From IMG/VR virus record IMGVR_UViG_3300025889_000252, positions 1-41,815 of that record: a DNA stretch of 41,815 nt; one strand, written 5' to 3'. Positions 4,832-37,095 of the stretch are shown one piece after another. Under the pieces are notes generated by a model that had not been told where the DNA came from, searched no databases, and was given only the letters and a program-made list of their open reading frames with translations. Source of the stretch: a virus. How positions within the stretch are numbered: the stretch's first letter is position 1; each line of letters starts with the position of its first letter. Made by a program: the position numbers and the translations under genes.

Positions 4832-4917
4832 GCCCCGGTGGTGGAAGCTGGTAGACACAACGAGTTTAAGCCTCGTTGCCGAAAGGCGTGCAGGATCGTG
4901 GCCTGTCCGGGGTACCA
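4832..4917 (+). tRNA. trnL: tRNA-Leu (anticodon UAA), intronless, CCA encoded
   Basis: A 7-bp acceptor stem (GCCCCGG with CCGGGGT), an ACGAG/CTCGT anticodon stem with loop TTTAAGC (anticodon TAA), a long variable arm with stem GCC/GGC and a T stem are all present. Discriminator A is followed by an encoded CCA. The T loop is ATCGTGG, departing from the usual T54 and A58. Many cyanobacterial tRNA-Leu(UAA) genes carry a group I intron in the anticodon loop; this copy has none. It reads against the surrounding late genes and abuts tRNA-Pro. Confidence 0.9.
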
Positions 4918-4989
4918 CGGGGATTAGCTCAGAGGAAGAGCGCTGTCTTTGGGAGGCAGCTGCCGCAGGTTCGACCCCTGCATCCCCGA
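4918..4989 (+). tRNA. trnP: tRNA-Pro (anticodon UGG)
   Basis: The acceptor stem CGGGGAT/ATCCCCG starts with the C1-G72 pair typical of bacterial tRNA-Pro. The D stem is GCTC/GAGC, and the anticodon stem CTGTC/GGCAG closes loop TTTGGGA (anticodon TGG). The T arm is GCAGG-TTCGACC-CCTGC. CCA is not encoded. It follows the Leu tRNA with no spacer, so both are probably processed from one transcript. Confidence 0.95.
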
Positions 4990-4990
4990 C

Positions 4991-19592: not shown

Positions 19593-20724
19593 CCCAGTGA
19601 CAGTTTAATCACTGGCTCTTGCGGTTTTCCATCCCGCAAGTTCAGACTATATCATGATCTAGTCACGCCAACGAAAATCAAGTGCATTTACCTGACGGTC
19701 TACTGTTCTTCAGTAAAGAGGAAATAGAACATCTTACTGACAATTGGTCAGATCTAGAAATTGCCAAAAAGTTTGACATTTCTTACGCGACAGTCAGAAA
19801 AGCACGAATAACACACAATGTAAAAACTTTCACCCAAAAAACCGGACTTGTTCGAATTGCAGAGACAGGAGAACTGCGAAAAAAAGGCAGCGTCAGAGGC
19901 GTCATTAGACAAGACAACCTAGACGTAACCTATTTCTCTGCTATTGATACTCCGAAAAAAGCATACTGGTTGGGAATGCTTCTTGCAGACGGTTGGTCTA
20001 CTCTGCGAAATGGTGTGCCCAAAGAGGTGGGATTGGCTTGTTCACCAAAAGACATTCATATTCTTCAGGAATTTCAAAAAGAAATTAACCACAAAGGCAG
20101 AATTGTCATCAAGACAAACAAAAGTTCCCTCAAAAAAGACAACATTTCACAAATAGCTACAATCAGGATTACGTGCCAAGAATTTACACGACTGGCGATT
20201 GAGGCTGGAGTTACACCCAAAAAGTCAGGGAAACTTTACATTCCCCGCTCCGTTCACGATTTCCCAGCAGAATTTTGCCGTGGATTTTTTGACGGAGACG
20301 GCTCGATCAGTGAAAAGAATTTTACATTTATTTGCGGGTCGGCAGGATTTCAAAAAGAACTACAAACATTTATTCAAACATATACGGGTGTAAATTTGTA
20401 CCCAGCAGCTTTGATTAGCCCGACAACTGGAAAACCGGTTGAGAGACTAAGTGGATACAAAAAAGATCGTGGCGTTTTGGAATGGATGTATGTAGATCCT
20501 GATCCGTGTTTGGAACGCAAATACAAAAAATTCGTTGGTTCTTGGTGCTAGATCCCCGGCGCTCGTGGGAGTATTACTGTCCGTTCTGGACTCGACTCCT
20601 AGTCGTTGCACCTTCTAAAAAATTCCTTTTTTAGCTTGGCTCAGGATTCCCCGTAGATGGAGGGGTTCCCTGAATTCACCGGGTTATTGCCTGCTTATCA
20701 CTAAGCAGCGGCGCAATTGTGTTT
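19593..20724 (-). ncRNA. Group I intron in the major capsid gene
   Basis: The 1132-nt intron has all the expected landmarks on the minus strand. The 5' exon end UGGCGU pairs with the internal guide GCGCCG (P1, U-G at the cut after 20725). P4 is UUCAGG with CCUGAG, P5 is CCCC with GGGG, and P6 is CUAAAAAA with UUUUUUAG capped GGAA. R is GUGCAACGACUA (about 20600) and S is GAUAUAGUCUGAAC (about 19650), giving P7 GACUA/UAGUC. P9 (CUUGCGG/CCGCAAG) and a CCAGUGA/UCACUGG hairpin precede the terminal G at 19593. The endonuclease gene lies between R and S, on the other strand. Confidence 0.88.
19682..20551 (+). CDS. LAGLIDADG homing endonuclease, antisense within the intron
   Basis: The 289-residue protein has two dodecapeptide motifs, YWLGMLLADG (95-104) and FCRGFFDGDGS (198-208), the hallmarks of a monomeric LAGLIDADG endonuclease. 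An N-terminal helix-turn-helix (DLEIAKKFDISYATVRKARI) precedes them. It would cut intronless capsid alleles and drive intron homing. It is read from the plus strand, opposite to capsid gene and intron, so it cannot be translated from the capsid transcript and needs its own promoter. Its AT-richer sequence sets it apart from the flanking exons. Start taken as GTG 19682. Confidence 0.88.
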   Translation: MHLPDGLLFFSKEEIEHLTDNWSDLEIAKKFDISYATVRKARITHNVKTFTQKTGLVRIAETGELRKKGSVRGVIRQDNLDVTYFSAIDTPKKAYWLGMLLADGWSTLRNGVPKEVGLACSPKDIHILQEFQKEINHKGRIVIKTNKSSLKKDNISQIATIRITCQEFTRLAIEAGVTPKKSGKLYIPRSVHDFPAEFCRGFFDGDGSISEKNFTFICGSAGFQKELQTFIQTYTGVNLYPAALISPTTGKPVERLSGYKKDRGVLEWMYVDPDPCLERKYKKFVGSWC

Positions 20725-26638: not shown

Positions 26639-27124
26639 TTAGGATTCTTCTGACAAGATCTTTGTCCACACACCCATCGATGCTTCCTGGAGGGGGCCTT
26701 CGATGGGGTCGTCGCGGAAGATGGAAAGCATCTCACGCAAAGCTCTGTCTGCGCCAGCAAGGATCAAACCTTGTTTATCCATCAAGATCTTTTCATCGTT
26801 TAGTTGCTTAATTGAGCCACGGAGCTCTTTTTGCATCATCGCGATACGCGAGGTGCCCATGTCCTGTTTGACCATGCCCATGTCAATAGCATCTCGCAAC
26901 TTGGCGATATCAGCTTGCATGGAATCAATCTCATCTTCCAGGATGGCATTAAAGTTCCTTTTCTTGTATTCCTGTTTCGACCACTCATCACACTCCACGA
27001 TGGAACCTTTAAACCCGAGGAAACGGGCATAAAGATACATCTGAATTGGAGACGGGGTTCGCTTACAGAAGGCAAGAAAGGATTCGCGGTCTTTGTCGGT
27101 TAAACCTTGAATCCACTTGATCAT
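26639..27124 (-). CDS. Probable terminase small subunit
   Basis: A 161-residue helical protein directly upstream of terL. The N-terminus (WIQGLTDKDRESFLAFC) could form the DNA-binding helices, and the middle is a coiled coil (DEIDSMQADIAKLRDAI) as in small terminases that oligomerise into rings. ATG 27124 overlaps the preceding stop (ATGA). The assignment rests on size, helicity and position. Confidence 0.65.
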   Translation of the reverse strand: MIKWIQGLTDKDRESFLAFCKRTPSPIQMYLYARFLGFKGSIVECDEWSKQEYKKRNFNAILEDEIDSMQADIAKLRDAIDMGMVKQDMGTSRIAMMQKELRGSIKQLNDEKILMDKQGLILAGADRALREMLSIFRDDPIEGPLQEASMGVWTKILSEES

Positions 27125-27897
27125 ACTTGTCTGGCGGCCGTCTGGGCTTGCTCATAATCTCTGTTCTCTTTATAGCGCCGGAACATCTCCTGTTGCAAGT
27201 CGGTTAACCGTTGTTGCGTACCAGTTGTTTCAATTCCCTTGCGGCTCTCTTCTCCTGTTGTACGAATAAGTCCGGTTTCGCCAGCATACCGTTGTGCTTG
27301 AGTAAGACGTTGCTGTTCACCAGTCGTTGCAATAGACTTGCGCTCTTGTTCTCCACTGGCCACAATATTCGCTCTGCTTTGCACACCTTGCTCGGCAATA
27401 TTGAATCGTTCTTCTTTGCCGGTTGCTCTTGCTACGTCAAGAGTCCTAGAGAGATTCGAATCATTGAGGCGTTCTTCTAAGTCTGCAGCAAACGTCAGAT
27501 TGCGTTGATTCGTCTCAATTGCTAAATCATTAATCGCCATCATGGTTTGAAGAGTTTGCGTGGCTCGCCTCAGTACCCTTACTCCCGCTCCTCCCTTGCC
27601 TCTATTACTCGAACCGCCAGCCATCCGAGATGAAGCACCTCCAGAAGACCTGCTGCCTCCGGAAGACCTGCTGCCTCCGGAAGACCTGCTGCCTCCGGAA
27701 GACCTGCTGCCTCCGGAAGACCTGCTGCCTCCGGAAGACCTGCTGCCTCCGGAAGACCTGCTGCCTCCGGAAGACCTGCTGCCTCCAGAAGACCTGCTGC
27801 CTCCAGAAGACCTGCTGCCTCCAGAAGACCTGCTGCCTCCAGAAGACCTGCTGCCTCCGGAAGACCTGCTGCCTCCACTGCGTCTCCCTCTAGTCAT
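27121..27897 (-). CDS. Protein with a GGSRSS tandem-repeat arm and a repetitive helical domain
   Basis: The 258-residue protein begins with about thirteen copies of GGSRSS, a flexible, strongly basic arm. The rest is a helical, charged region with its own 10-12 residue periodicity (GEQERKSIATTGEQQR, GEESRKGIETTGTQQR). The arm could bind nucleic acid or act as a linker. It lies between the candidate ejection proteins and the small terminase. No family recognised. The repeat is likely to vary in length between relatives. Confidence 0.68.
   Translation of the reverse strand: MTRGRRSGGSRSSGGSRSSGGSRSSGGSRSSGGSRSSGGSRSSGGSRSSGGSRSSGGSRSSGGSRSSGGSRSSGGSRSSGGSRSSGGASSRMAGGSSNRGKGGAGVRVLRRATQTLQTMMAINDLAIETNQRNLTFAADLEERLNDSNLSRTLDVARATGKEERFNIAEQGVQSRANIVASGEQERKSIATTGEQQRLTQAQRYAGETGLIRTTGEESRKGIETTGTQQRLTDLQQEMFRRYKENRDYEQAQTAARQV
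27638..27871 (-). repeat. Thirteen perfect-length 18-bp tandem repeats inside a coding region
   Basis: The unit cctccRgaagacctgctg is repeated 13 times without a gap (234 bp). One position varies: it is A in copies 1 and 9-12 and G in copies 2-8 and 13. The block pattern implies recent expansion by slippage or unequal recombination. It encodes the GGSRSS arm, and the frame is kept because the unit is 18 bp. A partial copy follows at 27872. Confidence 0.95.
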
Positions 27898-35370: not shown

Positions 35371-35657
35371 CCCTTGAAATCCCTTCCAGCGCAACGACTC
35401 TCGGCGATTGGGCCAGATGGGAAGTTGGGGCTTTTGATTTTTTTGGCAGCTCGTGTGGAAAACTTTTTCTGCACTTTTGATTGATGACTGCGTGACACCT
35501 GAGAAATTTGGTTCACTCGGCTGAAATCAGTGTCTCTGACCAACGTTAATAATTAGGGAAGGCAGTTATGTAATTAACATACTGCGATTGAAGATTGCCT
35601 CCAGGGCTGACAGCCTTAGATGCAGTCCTCAAGACTGTACCCTTTATGGAGACATCC

Positions 35658-35891
35658 ATGCAAACCCTCTACCCCGATGACATCTTCTTCGCTACCGAGG
35701 CAGCTGCACAAGCAGCGGCTGAGAACACTGTGCAGGAGCTGTACCGAAGGGCAGGCGAACAGCGCAGCATAGCCGTAGGCATTGCAACAGCAGTGGTTAC
35801 CGGTGCTGGCATAGCTGCTATTGCAGCTTGGAAATCGCCTGTGGGCCGTAAGGTCCGCAACAAGATCGCTAACGCGATCAAAGCTGAGTAA
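35658..35891 (+). CDS. Small membrane protein, first early gene
   Basis: A 77-residue protein from ATG 35658 (MQTLYPDDIFFATEAAAQAA) with GGAG seven bases upstream; an in-frame ATG at 35646 is the alternative. Residues about 37-58 (SIAVGIATAVVTGAGIAAIAAW) form one transmembrane helix, followed by a basic tail (GRKVRNKIANAIKAE). Host-takeover membrane proteins of this kind are common in early regions. Its stop lies in the first three-way-junction RNA. Confidence 0.6.
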   Translation: MQTLYPDDIFFATEAAAQAAAENTVQELYRRAGEQRSIAVGIATAVVTGAGIAAIAAWKSPVGRKVRNKIANAIKAE

Positions 35892-35950
35892 GGCGTGATG
35901 CCGGGGGATCGAATCCCCCACTCAGTTATTGCCTCCAGCGGAGATAGGCA
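35884..35950 (+). ncRNA. Three-way-junction RNA element, copy 1
   Basis: CTGAGT (35884-35889) pairs with ACTCAG (35920-35925) as closing stem P1. Inside, GGC-GTGAT-GCC is P2, and GGGGG-ATCGAAT-CCCCC is P3 with a 7-nt T-loop-like cap. P1 contains the end of the upstream gene and the T of its TAA. A second hairpin, TGCCT/AGGCA (35930-35950), follows, then AGGAG and the next start. Same plan as copies 2-4 with different stem sequences. Confidence 0.75.
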
Positions 35951-35970
35951 CCGCACAACAGGAGAACGCT

Positions 35971-36225
35971 GTGAGCGTCTTCAACATCGCAATTGTTAGC
36001 GAAGATGGCCTTCAGCAAGAAGGTCTTCTGCTCCCCACCAGGGAAGAGCTAGCAGCGCAGGCCTACGCCAACATCCAGTTTTGGATGGAAGCAGGCAACT
36101 CACAACTGCTCAGCCGTGAGCAGGCCCTCCAGATCGCAGCATGGGGTCTGGAGATCTCAGGTCATTCCGACCTGAAACACGCAGTTCTTTCGGAGCTTGT
36201 AGAGCTTCCAGAGAACTACGGCTGA
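35971..36225 (+). CDS. Unknown early protein
   Basis: An 84-residue acidic protein from GTG 35971, which has AGGAG at a good distance (MSVFNIAIVSEDGLQQEG onward). Helical segments REELAAQAYANIQFWMEAG and EQALQIAAWGLEI are visible. The frame is open upstream, but the extension covers the RNA element. Stop lies in copy 2 of the three-way junction. No family recognised. Confidence 0.65.
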   Translation: MSVFNIAIVSEDGLQQEGLLLPTREELAAQAYANIQFWMEAGNSQLLSREQALQIAAWGLEISGHSDLKHAVLSELVELPENYG

Positions 36226-36288
36226 TCCGTTAAAGCGGGCGGCCAGGTGCAAACCCTGGCCCAGTTATTGCCTCTCACTGAGGGAGGC
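36220..36288 (+). ncRNA. Three-way-junction RNA element, copy 2
   Basis: P1 is GGCTG (36220-36224) with CAGTT (36262-36266), including two G-U pairs. P2 is CCG-TTAAAG-CGG. P3 is GGCCAGG-TGCAAAC-CCTGGCC, 7 bp with a 7-nt cap. The TGA stop of the upstream gene starts within P1. The trailing hairpin is GCCTC/GAGGC (36270-36288), 13 nt before the next ATG. Linkers are AT between P1 and P2, GC between P2 and P3, and none after P3. Confidence 0.8.
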
Positions 36289-36301
36289 TTACTTCAACAG
36301 C

Positions 36302-36478
36302 ATGCTCTACTACATCGTCTCTTTCTCTGCTGAAGATGGAAACTTCAAAGGTCTCCATTCAACAACTGAGGAAGACTACGCCTACGCAATCTATGAAGAG
36401 TACTGCGAAAAGTATCCTCACGGTTACTTTGATGTCTTCACAGAAGACGAATACGACCACGTCATCGCTAACAGCTGA
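36302..36478 (+). CDS. Small acidic early protein
   Basis: A 58-residue protein, MLYYIVSFSAEDGNFKGLHS onward, rich in Tyr, Glu and Asp (YAYAIYEEYCEKYPHGYFDV). It fills the space between two RNA elements and has natural composition. No ribosome site is clear. Very acidic small proteins can act as host-enzyme inhibitors or DNA mimics, but nothing here proves that. Confidence 0.65.
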   Translation: MLYYIVSFSAEDGNFKGLHSTTEEDYAYAIYEEYCEKYPHGYFDVFTEDEYDHVIANS

Positions 36479-36540
36479 TCCGTTCAAGCGGGCTCCAGGG
36501 TGCAAACCCCTGGACAGCTCTCGCCTGCAATCCAGCAGGC
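36473..36540 (+). ncRNA. Three-way-junction RNA element, copy 3
   Basis: P1 is AGCTG (36473-36477) with CAGCT (36515-36519). P2 is CCG-TTCAAG-CGG. P3 is TCCAGGG-TGCAAAC-CCCTGGA. Linkers AT and GC match copy 2, while P1 and P3 differ in sequence but keep their pairing. The TGA stop starts in P1. The trailing hairpin GCCTGC/GCAGGC (36523-36540) ends immediately before an ATG. Confidence 0.82.
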
Positions 36541-36564
36541 ATGCACACACCACCAAGCGTCACC

Positions 36565-36828
36565 ATGACCGAAGCTGCTGTGTATCACAAGCTCCAAGAT
36601 CTTCGTCTGCTCGCTAGGAGAGATTCCACTCTCCGTTCGCCCCAGGTAGATACTGAGCTGGAGCAATTCCGCCTCCAATTCTTTGCTGCTTTCGAGCAGT
36701 GGATGGATGGCATGAAGGAGATGAACCTGACGCCGTTCATTGTAACGGCTGACCGAATAATCTCTGGCAACAAAGAGCTACTCCGGTGGCTCAAGAATGA
36801 GATTGAGCAAGAAGCCAATCTCAGCTGA
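36565..36828 (+). CDS. Unknown helical early protein
   Basis: An 87-residue helical protein (MTEAAVYHKLQDLRLLARRD to NEIEQEANLS). ATG 36565 is preferred because it follows CACC as at many early starts; ATG 36541, eight codons upstream, directly abuts the RNA hairpin and cannot be excluded. No family recognised. Confidence 0.62.
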   Translation: MTEAAVYHKLQDLRLLARRDSTLRSPQVDTELEQFRLQFFAAFEQWMDGMKEMNLTPFIVTADRIISGNKELLRWLKNEIEQEANLS

Positions 36829-36893
36829 GCTGTAGACAGCCTGGGGAGGTGCAATTCCTCCCCTCAGCATTGCCCAACCGTAGGAGATGGGCA
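36824..36893 (+). ncRNA. Three-way-junction RNA element, copy 4
   Basis: P1 is GCTGA (36824-36828) with TCAGC (36864-36868). P2 is GCTG-TAGA-CAGC. P3 is GGGGAGG-TGCAATT-CCTCCCC, again 7 bp with a 7-nt cap. The whole TGA stop lies in P1. The trailing hairpin is TGCCC/GGGCA (36871-36893). Every stem differs from the other copies yet stays paired. Confidence 0.8.
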
Positions 36894-36912
36894 CCTGCAC
36901 TACAACAACGCA

Positions 36913-37095
36913 ATGACGAAAGAACAGTCCTCTGTTTATGTCATCGTATCGGCAATCGTTCTTTGCATCGCCAGTCATTTGGGCAGCTATGTCCTGGACC
37001 AAGCAACAGCAAAGCAATGCCGACAACACCAATGGCCAGCACACCTCGATGACACCCATCGGGATTGGTGCGTCGCCAACGGTTACACCATCTAA
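36913..37095 (+). CDS. Small membrane protein
   Basis: A 60-residue protein with one N-terminal transmembrane helix (VYVIVSAIVLCIASHLG, residues 8-24) and a short soluble tail with Cys and Trp residues (QCRQHQWPAHLDDTHRDWC). It could also act as an uncleaved signal anchor. Its ATG lies 19 bases after the trailing hairpin of RNA copy 4. A GCAGG/CCTGC hairpin follows the stop (about 37108-37123). Confidence 0.65.
   Translation: MTKEQSSVYVIVSAIVLCIASHLGSYVLDQATAKQCRQHQWPAHLDDTHRDWCVANGYTI

Follow-up and report, generated by a model that had tools for sequence, protein, structure and literature searches.

Four repeated elements between small genes

The stretch of DNA analysed here, referred to as the window, is an IMG/VR virus record of 41.8 kb (IMGVR_UViG_3300025889_000252, positions 1 to 41,815). 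Its structural genes are oriented leftward, and a unit of small genes oriented rightward begins at about 35.66 kb. By DNA, the Synechococcus phage S-EIV1 is the closest isolate relative of the window in this region. Five small genes that open the rightward transcription unit (35661–37095, plus strand; stops at 35891, 36225, 36478, 36828 and 37095), none of which has a PHROG match, are separated by four RNA elements that occupy the first four spacers of the unit (35882–36898, plus strand) and very probably mimic the acceptor/T-arm half of a tRNA. An initial annotation of the sequence had described a structure repeated in four consecutive spacers, with a closing stem (P1), a short hairpin (P2) and a second hairpin (P3) capped by a T-loop-like sequence. 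The repeats and their caps are present as placed, and the minimum free energy folds of all four copies contain P1, P2 and P3 (z-scores −2.1 to −3.0). A scan of both window strands for T-loop hairpins returned the four elements, a true tRNA-Pro and one weak match on the minus strand. Four such helices occur within 1 kb of the window, as compared to 0.06 per 45 kb of random sequence.

Copy 1 (35882–35927) is of subtype II, which differs from the subtype of copies 2 and 3. Its P1 pairs AGCUGAGU (35882–35889) with ACUCAGUU (35920–35927), its P2 is the hairpin GGCGUGAUGCC (35892–35902), and its P3 pairs GGGGG (35903–35907) with CCCCC (35915–35919) below the T-loop AUCGAAU (35908–35914). The upstream stop codon UAA lies at 35889–35891, and 13 nucleotides (nt) separate the T-loop from AUUGCC. 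The following A-UU and downstream structure (35928–35954) contain two interleaved helices, S1 (GCCU 35931–35934 with AGGC 35946–35949) and S2 (GCGG 35938–35941 with CCGC 35951–35954). Copies 2 and 3 are of type I, and their P2 pairs CCGU with GCGG around a UNAA-type loop. Copy 2 (36220–36266) has P1 GGCUG/CAGUU, P2 CCGUUAAAGCGG, P3 GGCCAGG/CCUGGCC, the T-loop UGCAAAC (36248–36254) and the stop UGA at 36223–36225, followed by A73-UU and a hairpin (36267–36288; GCCUCUC 36270–36276 with GGGAGGC 36282–36288), A73 being the discriminator position in tRNA numbering. Copy 3 (36473–36519) has P1 AGCUG/CAGCU, P2 CCGUUCAAGCGG, P3 UCCAGGG/CCCUGGA, the T-loop UGCAAAC (36501–36507) and the stop UGA at 36476–36478, followed by C73-UC and a hairpin (36520–36540; GCCUGC 36523–36528 with GCAGGC 36535–36540). 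Copy 4 (36824–36868) has P1 GCUGA/UCAGC, P2 GCUGUAGACAGC, P3 GGGGAGG/CCUCCCC, the T-loop UGCAAUU (36850–36856) and the stop UGA at 36826–36828, followed by A73-UU and an interleaved structure (36869–36898) made of S1 (GCCC 36872–36875 with GGGC 36889–36892) and S2 (GUAGG 36880–36884 with CCUGC 36894–36898). Copies 2 and 3 score 77.7 and 70.3 bits with model R1, whose training set includes both of them; copy 4, which is outside that set, scores 22.6 bits. As for the stem and linker lengths of the initial annotation, P1 of copy 1 can reach 8 base pairs (bp), its P3 has 5 bp, and the linkers vary.

A covarying family with tRNA geometry

Relatives were retrieved with a pattern consisting only of the P2 sequence and the T-loop of copies 2 and 3 (pattern 1), which is blind to P1 and to most of P3. 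It matched at least 119 stretches in IMG/VR. Among 138 distinct matches, the P3 positions are each paired in 133–136 and the first four P1 positions in 132–135. In an alignment of 108 distinct rows, 97.2% of the cells are paired, double changes are found at 11 pairs, and none of 500 shuffles reaches the observed covariation of P1 and P3; shifting the partner by one column lowers the pairing to about 50%. The elements thus form a widespread and real RNA family carried by numerous picocyanobacterial viruses, as the proposal that sequences change while pairing is kept had implied, with relatives in more than 100 IMG/VR stretches, in S-EIV1, in S-CBP2 and on two non-cyanobacterial phage contigs. 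The type I P2 (AUCCGU-NNAA-GCGGGU) is near-identical across unrelated phages and is not found in the other subtypes; a scan of IMG/VR for type I elements in which AUCCG follows a pyrimidine gave none. Within one genome, identical P3 arms occur in 2 of 33 pairs against 4.6 expected, which is no strong excess or lack, and an avoidance of identical arms was rejected because the effect is weak and not significant.

A second pattern, restricted to the downstream hairpin, yielded 81 distinct upstream regions, with P2 of type I in 30, of type II in 20, of a third kind in 5 and of other kinds in 24. For 76 of these 81 regions, the 3′ strand of an arm with a 7-nt T-loop stops short of A-UU-GCC by 12 nt (62) or 13 nt (14), where best hairpins listed with a 5-nt loop, one nt further out, are treated as T-loops with a closed 54–60 pair. 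Mononucleotide shuffles produced the arrangement with 12 nt and a 7-nt loop 5 times in 1620. The 46 loops scored as 7-nt carry A58, a pyrimidine at 60 and a closing G-C pair without exception, and C56 in 45. A stricter sequence test left 15 of the 81 regions unmatched; most of these have a related arm that deviates slightly, for example by a purine at position 60, and in at least two of them (L131 and L150) nothing similar is present.

The 3′ strand of P3 continues without a gap into P1. P1 and P3 together amount to 12 bp while the branch point shifts. At S-EIV1-like loci the helix is split as 5+7 (171), 6+6 (50), 7+5 (41) or 4+8 (9). The descriptor used for this count fixes the total at 12, and only the split is informative from it; the total of 12–13 rests on the pattern-1 and hairpin-anchored samples. 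Twelve base pairs correspond to the acceptor stem (7) plus the T-stem (5) of tRNA. Among the type I sequences, which were retrieved without using these positions, A73 is present in 118, U74 in 134 and U75 in 132 of 138. Directly below the T-loop, 106 of 108 rows have a G-C pair, paralleling G53-C61 of tRNA, while most of the remaining P3 varies freely. The elements therefore share with canonical tRNA the 12-bp acceptor plus T-stem, the T-loop residues C56, R57, A58 and Y60, and the G53-C61 pair. A D-arm and a 7-nt anticodon loop are absent, their place being taken by only one short hairpin or by a bulge of 8–16 nt without a conserved P2. ARAGORN called only the true tRNA-Leu and tRNA-Pro genes in the window, and the Rfam tRNA model RF00005 likewise matched a true window tRNA gene and no element. 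These two genes, tRNA-Leu(UAA) and tRNA-Pro(UGG), are directly adjacent on the plus strand (4832–4990), opposite to the surrounding genes; in tRNA-Pro, A73 is followed by CUU and CCA is not encoded.

The core of the element is the 12-bp acceptor/T-arm minihelix with its T-loop, A73-UU and the hairpin that follows. The three-way junction, which the initial annotation took as the shared architecture, is a subtype feature, because P2 differs widely in sequence and Prochlorococcus podoviruses lack the conserved hairpin. Conversely, the downstream hairpin had been regarded as separate and belongs to the element, being held at a set distance (A-UU) from P1 and usually starting one or two nt past U74. 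One class of downstream structure, represented by 48 relatives and including copies 1 and 4, follows the scheme GCCN-CCA-GCGG-AGAU-NGGC-A-CCGC and consists of two interleaved helices, both with double changes; besides GCCN/NGGC and GCGG/CCGC, variants such as GUGG/CCAC and GCAG/CUGC occur at many loci. These helices may form a pseudoknot, two alternative hairpins or a conformational switch ahead of the next gene, although a classical stacked H-type fold seems doubtful because the third loop would be 1 nt. The cyanophage copies do not resemble intrinsic terminators, since A-UU is followed by a hairpin and not by a U run; a U run after the element is found only in copies from horse-feces phages. 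Before the first small gene in the window, ATTGCCTCCAGGGCTGACAG (35594–35613) looks like the beginning of a downstream hairpin and has no T-arm ahead of it.

The family extends beyond the relatives of S-EIV1. Model R1 scores 61 bits in S-CBP2 (Autographiviridae), and it finds four copies on an archaeon-binned phage contig (L178) and one on a Clostridia-binned phage contig (L179). Both contigs come from gut metagenome bins, and between them their phage genes include portal protein, terminase and anti-repressor. The L178 copies have P1 ACCCU/AGGGU or similar and then a U run, so some of them could act as terminators. NATL2A-133, reached by BLAST from S-CBP2, holds two elements that have the 12-bp helix, the canonical T-loops UUCGACU and UUCAACU, A73-UU and the hairpin, and that lack the type I P2. 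Prochlorococcus podoviruses keep the helix, A73-UU and the hairpin with T-loops UUCGACU, UUCAACU or UUCAAGU. Other BLAST matches, in Mycobacterium, Thermus, Brochothrix and Aeromonas phages, look like chance or real tRNAs and were set aside.

A strict descriptor built on tRNA geometry only detects elements in NATL2A-133, P-SSP10, 9515-10a and S-CBP2, as compared to 0.06 per genome in Markov-random sequence. A relaxed form adds P-SSP7 (none in random sequence), where model R1 gives 21 bits. A still looser scan, run without a random control, adds Syn5, in which model R1 reaches only E = 2.1. Over the strict and relaxed forms, these six cyanopodoviruses have 1–3 copies each. No element was found in P60. 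Elements appear to lie upstream of the capsid gene in P-SSP7 (20631–20679) and Syn5 (about 19841–19884), and another precedes the first gene of P-SSP7 (about 1014–1046). The copies at the capsid gene indicate that the elements occur outside early spacers as well, contrary to the idea that they separate early cistrons only.

Placement of the stop codon was examined in the 247 copies with an assignable upstream open reading frame. The first base of the stop is helix nucleotide 4 in 119 and nucleotide 3 in 29, placing 148 stops (60%) at nucleotides 3–6, while 43 stops precede the helix and 56 are located further downstream. A stop in or at P1, described as invariable by the initial annotation, is seen in all four window copies but in only this share of the family. 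In type I elements, nucleotides 4–6 read UGA in 114 and UAA in 11 of 128. Opposite UGA, the other strand has CA in 107 copies, and opposite UAA it has UA in 8, which indicates that both the pairing and the stop are kept. Both upstream stops of NATL2A-133 occupy helix nucleotides 4–6, as does one of the two in P-SSP10 and in 9515-10a, the other being in the bulge. The first S-EIV1 copy begins 47 nt past its upstream stop, and the stop register is not shared by distant relatives outside the cyanophages.

Possible processing between cistrons

Taken together, these features suggest a tRNA-like punctuation signal, and we consider it an even chance that host tRNase Z (RNase Z) cuts after A73 between the genes. 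In the 12-bp minihelix, P1 and P3 are stacked under the T-loop, and a discriminator-like A and UU come next. The enzyme would bind this minihelix and split the polycistronic phage mRNA. The 3′ end of the upstream mRNA would then consist of a folded, tRNA-like domain with the message's own stop codon inside, to which CCA could be added, whereas the downstream mRNA would begin with 5′-UU directly ahead of a hairpin or interleaved structure, which could protect its 5′ end. A terminating ribosome would hold the helix open where the stop lies in P1, and cutting would thus follow the end of translation. The elements have what RNase Z substrates display: an acceptor/T-arm minihelix, a discriminator, a U within 2 nt downstream and no CCA. 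RNase Z of Bacillus subtilis is about 200-fold more active when one of the two nucleotides that follow the discriminator is a U (PMC10100781). RNase Z is also known to cut directly behind an A discriminator that precedes U (PMC8549757). Both RNase Z and RNase P occur in cyanobacteria (PMC10989914). No phage-encoded RNase Z was found in the window, which is a fragmentary record.

Several observations weigh against cleavage by RNase Z. RNase P recognises the same acceptor/T-arm minihelix (PMC4975455), and loss of the elbow weakens processing of degenerate tRNAs by ELAC2 unless helper proteins are present (PMC11996679), although ELAC2 is the human enzyme, which limits the comparison with cyanobacterial RNase Z. 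Type I elements carry G55 in place of U55, and their T-loop has no D-loop partner. The spacing is 13 nt instead of 12 in about 18% of the hairpin-anchored arms, and in 23 of the 108 rows the outermost bases of P1 do not pair. RNase Z also leaves unexplained why the type I P2 sequence is so strongly conserved, distant phages included.

Alternatively, RNase P could cut on the 5′ flank of P1, by itself or jointly with RNase Z, and excise a tRNA-like RNA of about 47 nt from each spacer. Its substrates include the C4 and M3 RNAs of phages and certain mRNAs (PMC11143913), and in plants both enzymes cut t-elements (PMC11658184). However, a cut at the +1 position of P1 would take away the upstream stop in 204 of the 247 copies (about 80%), which favours a cut on the 3′ side, where the conserved A-UU also sits. 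Furthermore, C and A predominate at N−1, and the 1:72 pair is A-U, G-U or a mismatch, with G1-C72 in only 7 of 128. We regard this route as unlikely. Somewhat less probable still is that the structure stays uncut and serves as a 3′ stabiliser or protein-binding mark, through which a tRNA-handling or phage protein shields the upstream messages. Such a role would suit the placement directly at stop codons and the conservation of the T-loop and the type I P2 sequence, but it does not account for A73-UU or for the fixed start of the downstream hairpin.

The fixed P1 register of the stop in 60% of the copies and the UGA/UAA swaps, mostly with compensating changes, would also fit translational coupling, in which the terminating ribosome melts the structure and controls reinitiation at the next gene. 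The starts of the next genes are, however, tens of nt downstream and behind a second structure, about 40% of the stops lie elsewhere, some of them upstream of the element, and coupling does not explain why the tRNA geometry is kept without P2. We consider it improbable. Reinitiation, decay or processing had all been proposed for these spacers, and our results point to processing, with nothing found that specifically favours reinitiation. Phage attachment (attP) sites are often partial tRNAs, a halovirus providing one example (PMC8707807). The elements might be tRNA 3′ fragments that serve as such sites or as repeats through which modules are exchanged, and some P3 sequences do recur across many phages; this is highly improbable given that both strands of the 12-bp helix lie in cis and covary, that several copies stand in adjacent spacers, and that identical P3 arms within a genome show, as given above, no strong excess or lack.

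Returning to tRNase Z, it is conceivable, though somewhat less so than cleavage itself, that the host enzyme frees each cistron only after its last ribosome has left, leaving tRNA-like, possibly CCA-tailed 3′ ends and hairpin-capped 5′ ends, and that this device is common to unrelated S-EIV1-like phages, T7-like cyanopodoviruses and gut phages. If so, these phages would split polycistronic mRNAs without a nuclease of their own by borrowing the host enzyme of tRNA 3′ maturation, and tRNA punctuation, known from mitochondria, would extend to bacterial viruses. The elements would also constitute a natural family of minimal substrates for tRNA enzymes, whose sequence diversity could define the needs of RNase Z or RNase P. 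P-SSP7 and Syn5, both of them model phages, appear to have copies at the capsid gene, which makes the proposal testable in existing infection systems and perhaps in existing RNA-seq data. Elsewhere in the window, a predicted protein on the minus strand (27121–27897) has a long run of GGSRSS repeats at its start.

Relation to known systems

At the gathering score, Rfam 15 matched none of the elements in the window or at eight loci, its only hit being the window tRNA gene at 4918–4989; this accords with the earlier view that the motif is not a known one. The closest parallels are the t-elements of plant mitochondria and mitochondrial tRNA punctuation, which likewise place tRNA-like structures at the gene borders of polycistronic transcripts. 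There, cuts by RNase P and RNase Z define the mRNA ends (PMC11658184). The phage elements also occupy such borders, in spacers at stop codons, as judged from sequence. Whereas t-elements derive from whole tRNA genes and are cloverleaf-like, the phage elements have no whole-tRNA homology by ARAGORN or Rfam and consist of the acceptor/T-arm helix with at most one short hairpin, often with the stop inside and with a dedicated hairpin after it. Recognition of a stacked acceptor and T-stem with its T-loop is also known for pATSer-type RNase P model substrates and for RNase Z (PMC4975455; PMC11996679). The former are engineered and the latter are tRNA precursors, in contrast to the natural minihelix in phage spacers.

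Among phage RNAs, the C4 antisense RNA (RF01695) and M3 RNA are likewise cut by a tRNA-processing enzyme without being tRNA genes (PMC11143913), but C4 cleavage yields an antisense RNA and not a separation of cistrons, and the elements have no Rfam match to RF01695. The manA, wcaG and PhotoRC-II motifs (RF01745, RF01761 and RF01717) are cyanophage structured RNAs that also came from comparative genomics (PMC2864571). While manA lies in potential 5′ untranslated regions of metabolic genes and PhotoRC-II occurs with psbA-like genes, our elements overlap the stops of small early genes and have no Rfam match to these families. The tRNA-like domain of tmRNA similarly combines an acceptor stem and T-arm with a reduced D-arm; the only match was below threshold and on the opposite strand (16.4 bits against a gathering score of 70), and the elements have neither an mRNA-like domain nor CCA. 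We found no report of such elements in phages in the open-licence PMC literature. The principle of a tRNA-like processing signal is therefore known, and what appears new, as far as searched, is its minimal form, the embedded stop codon, the repetition in consecutive spacers and the occurrence in several phage groups.
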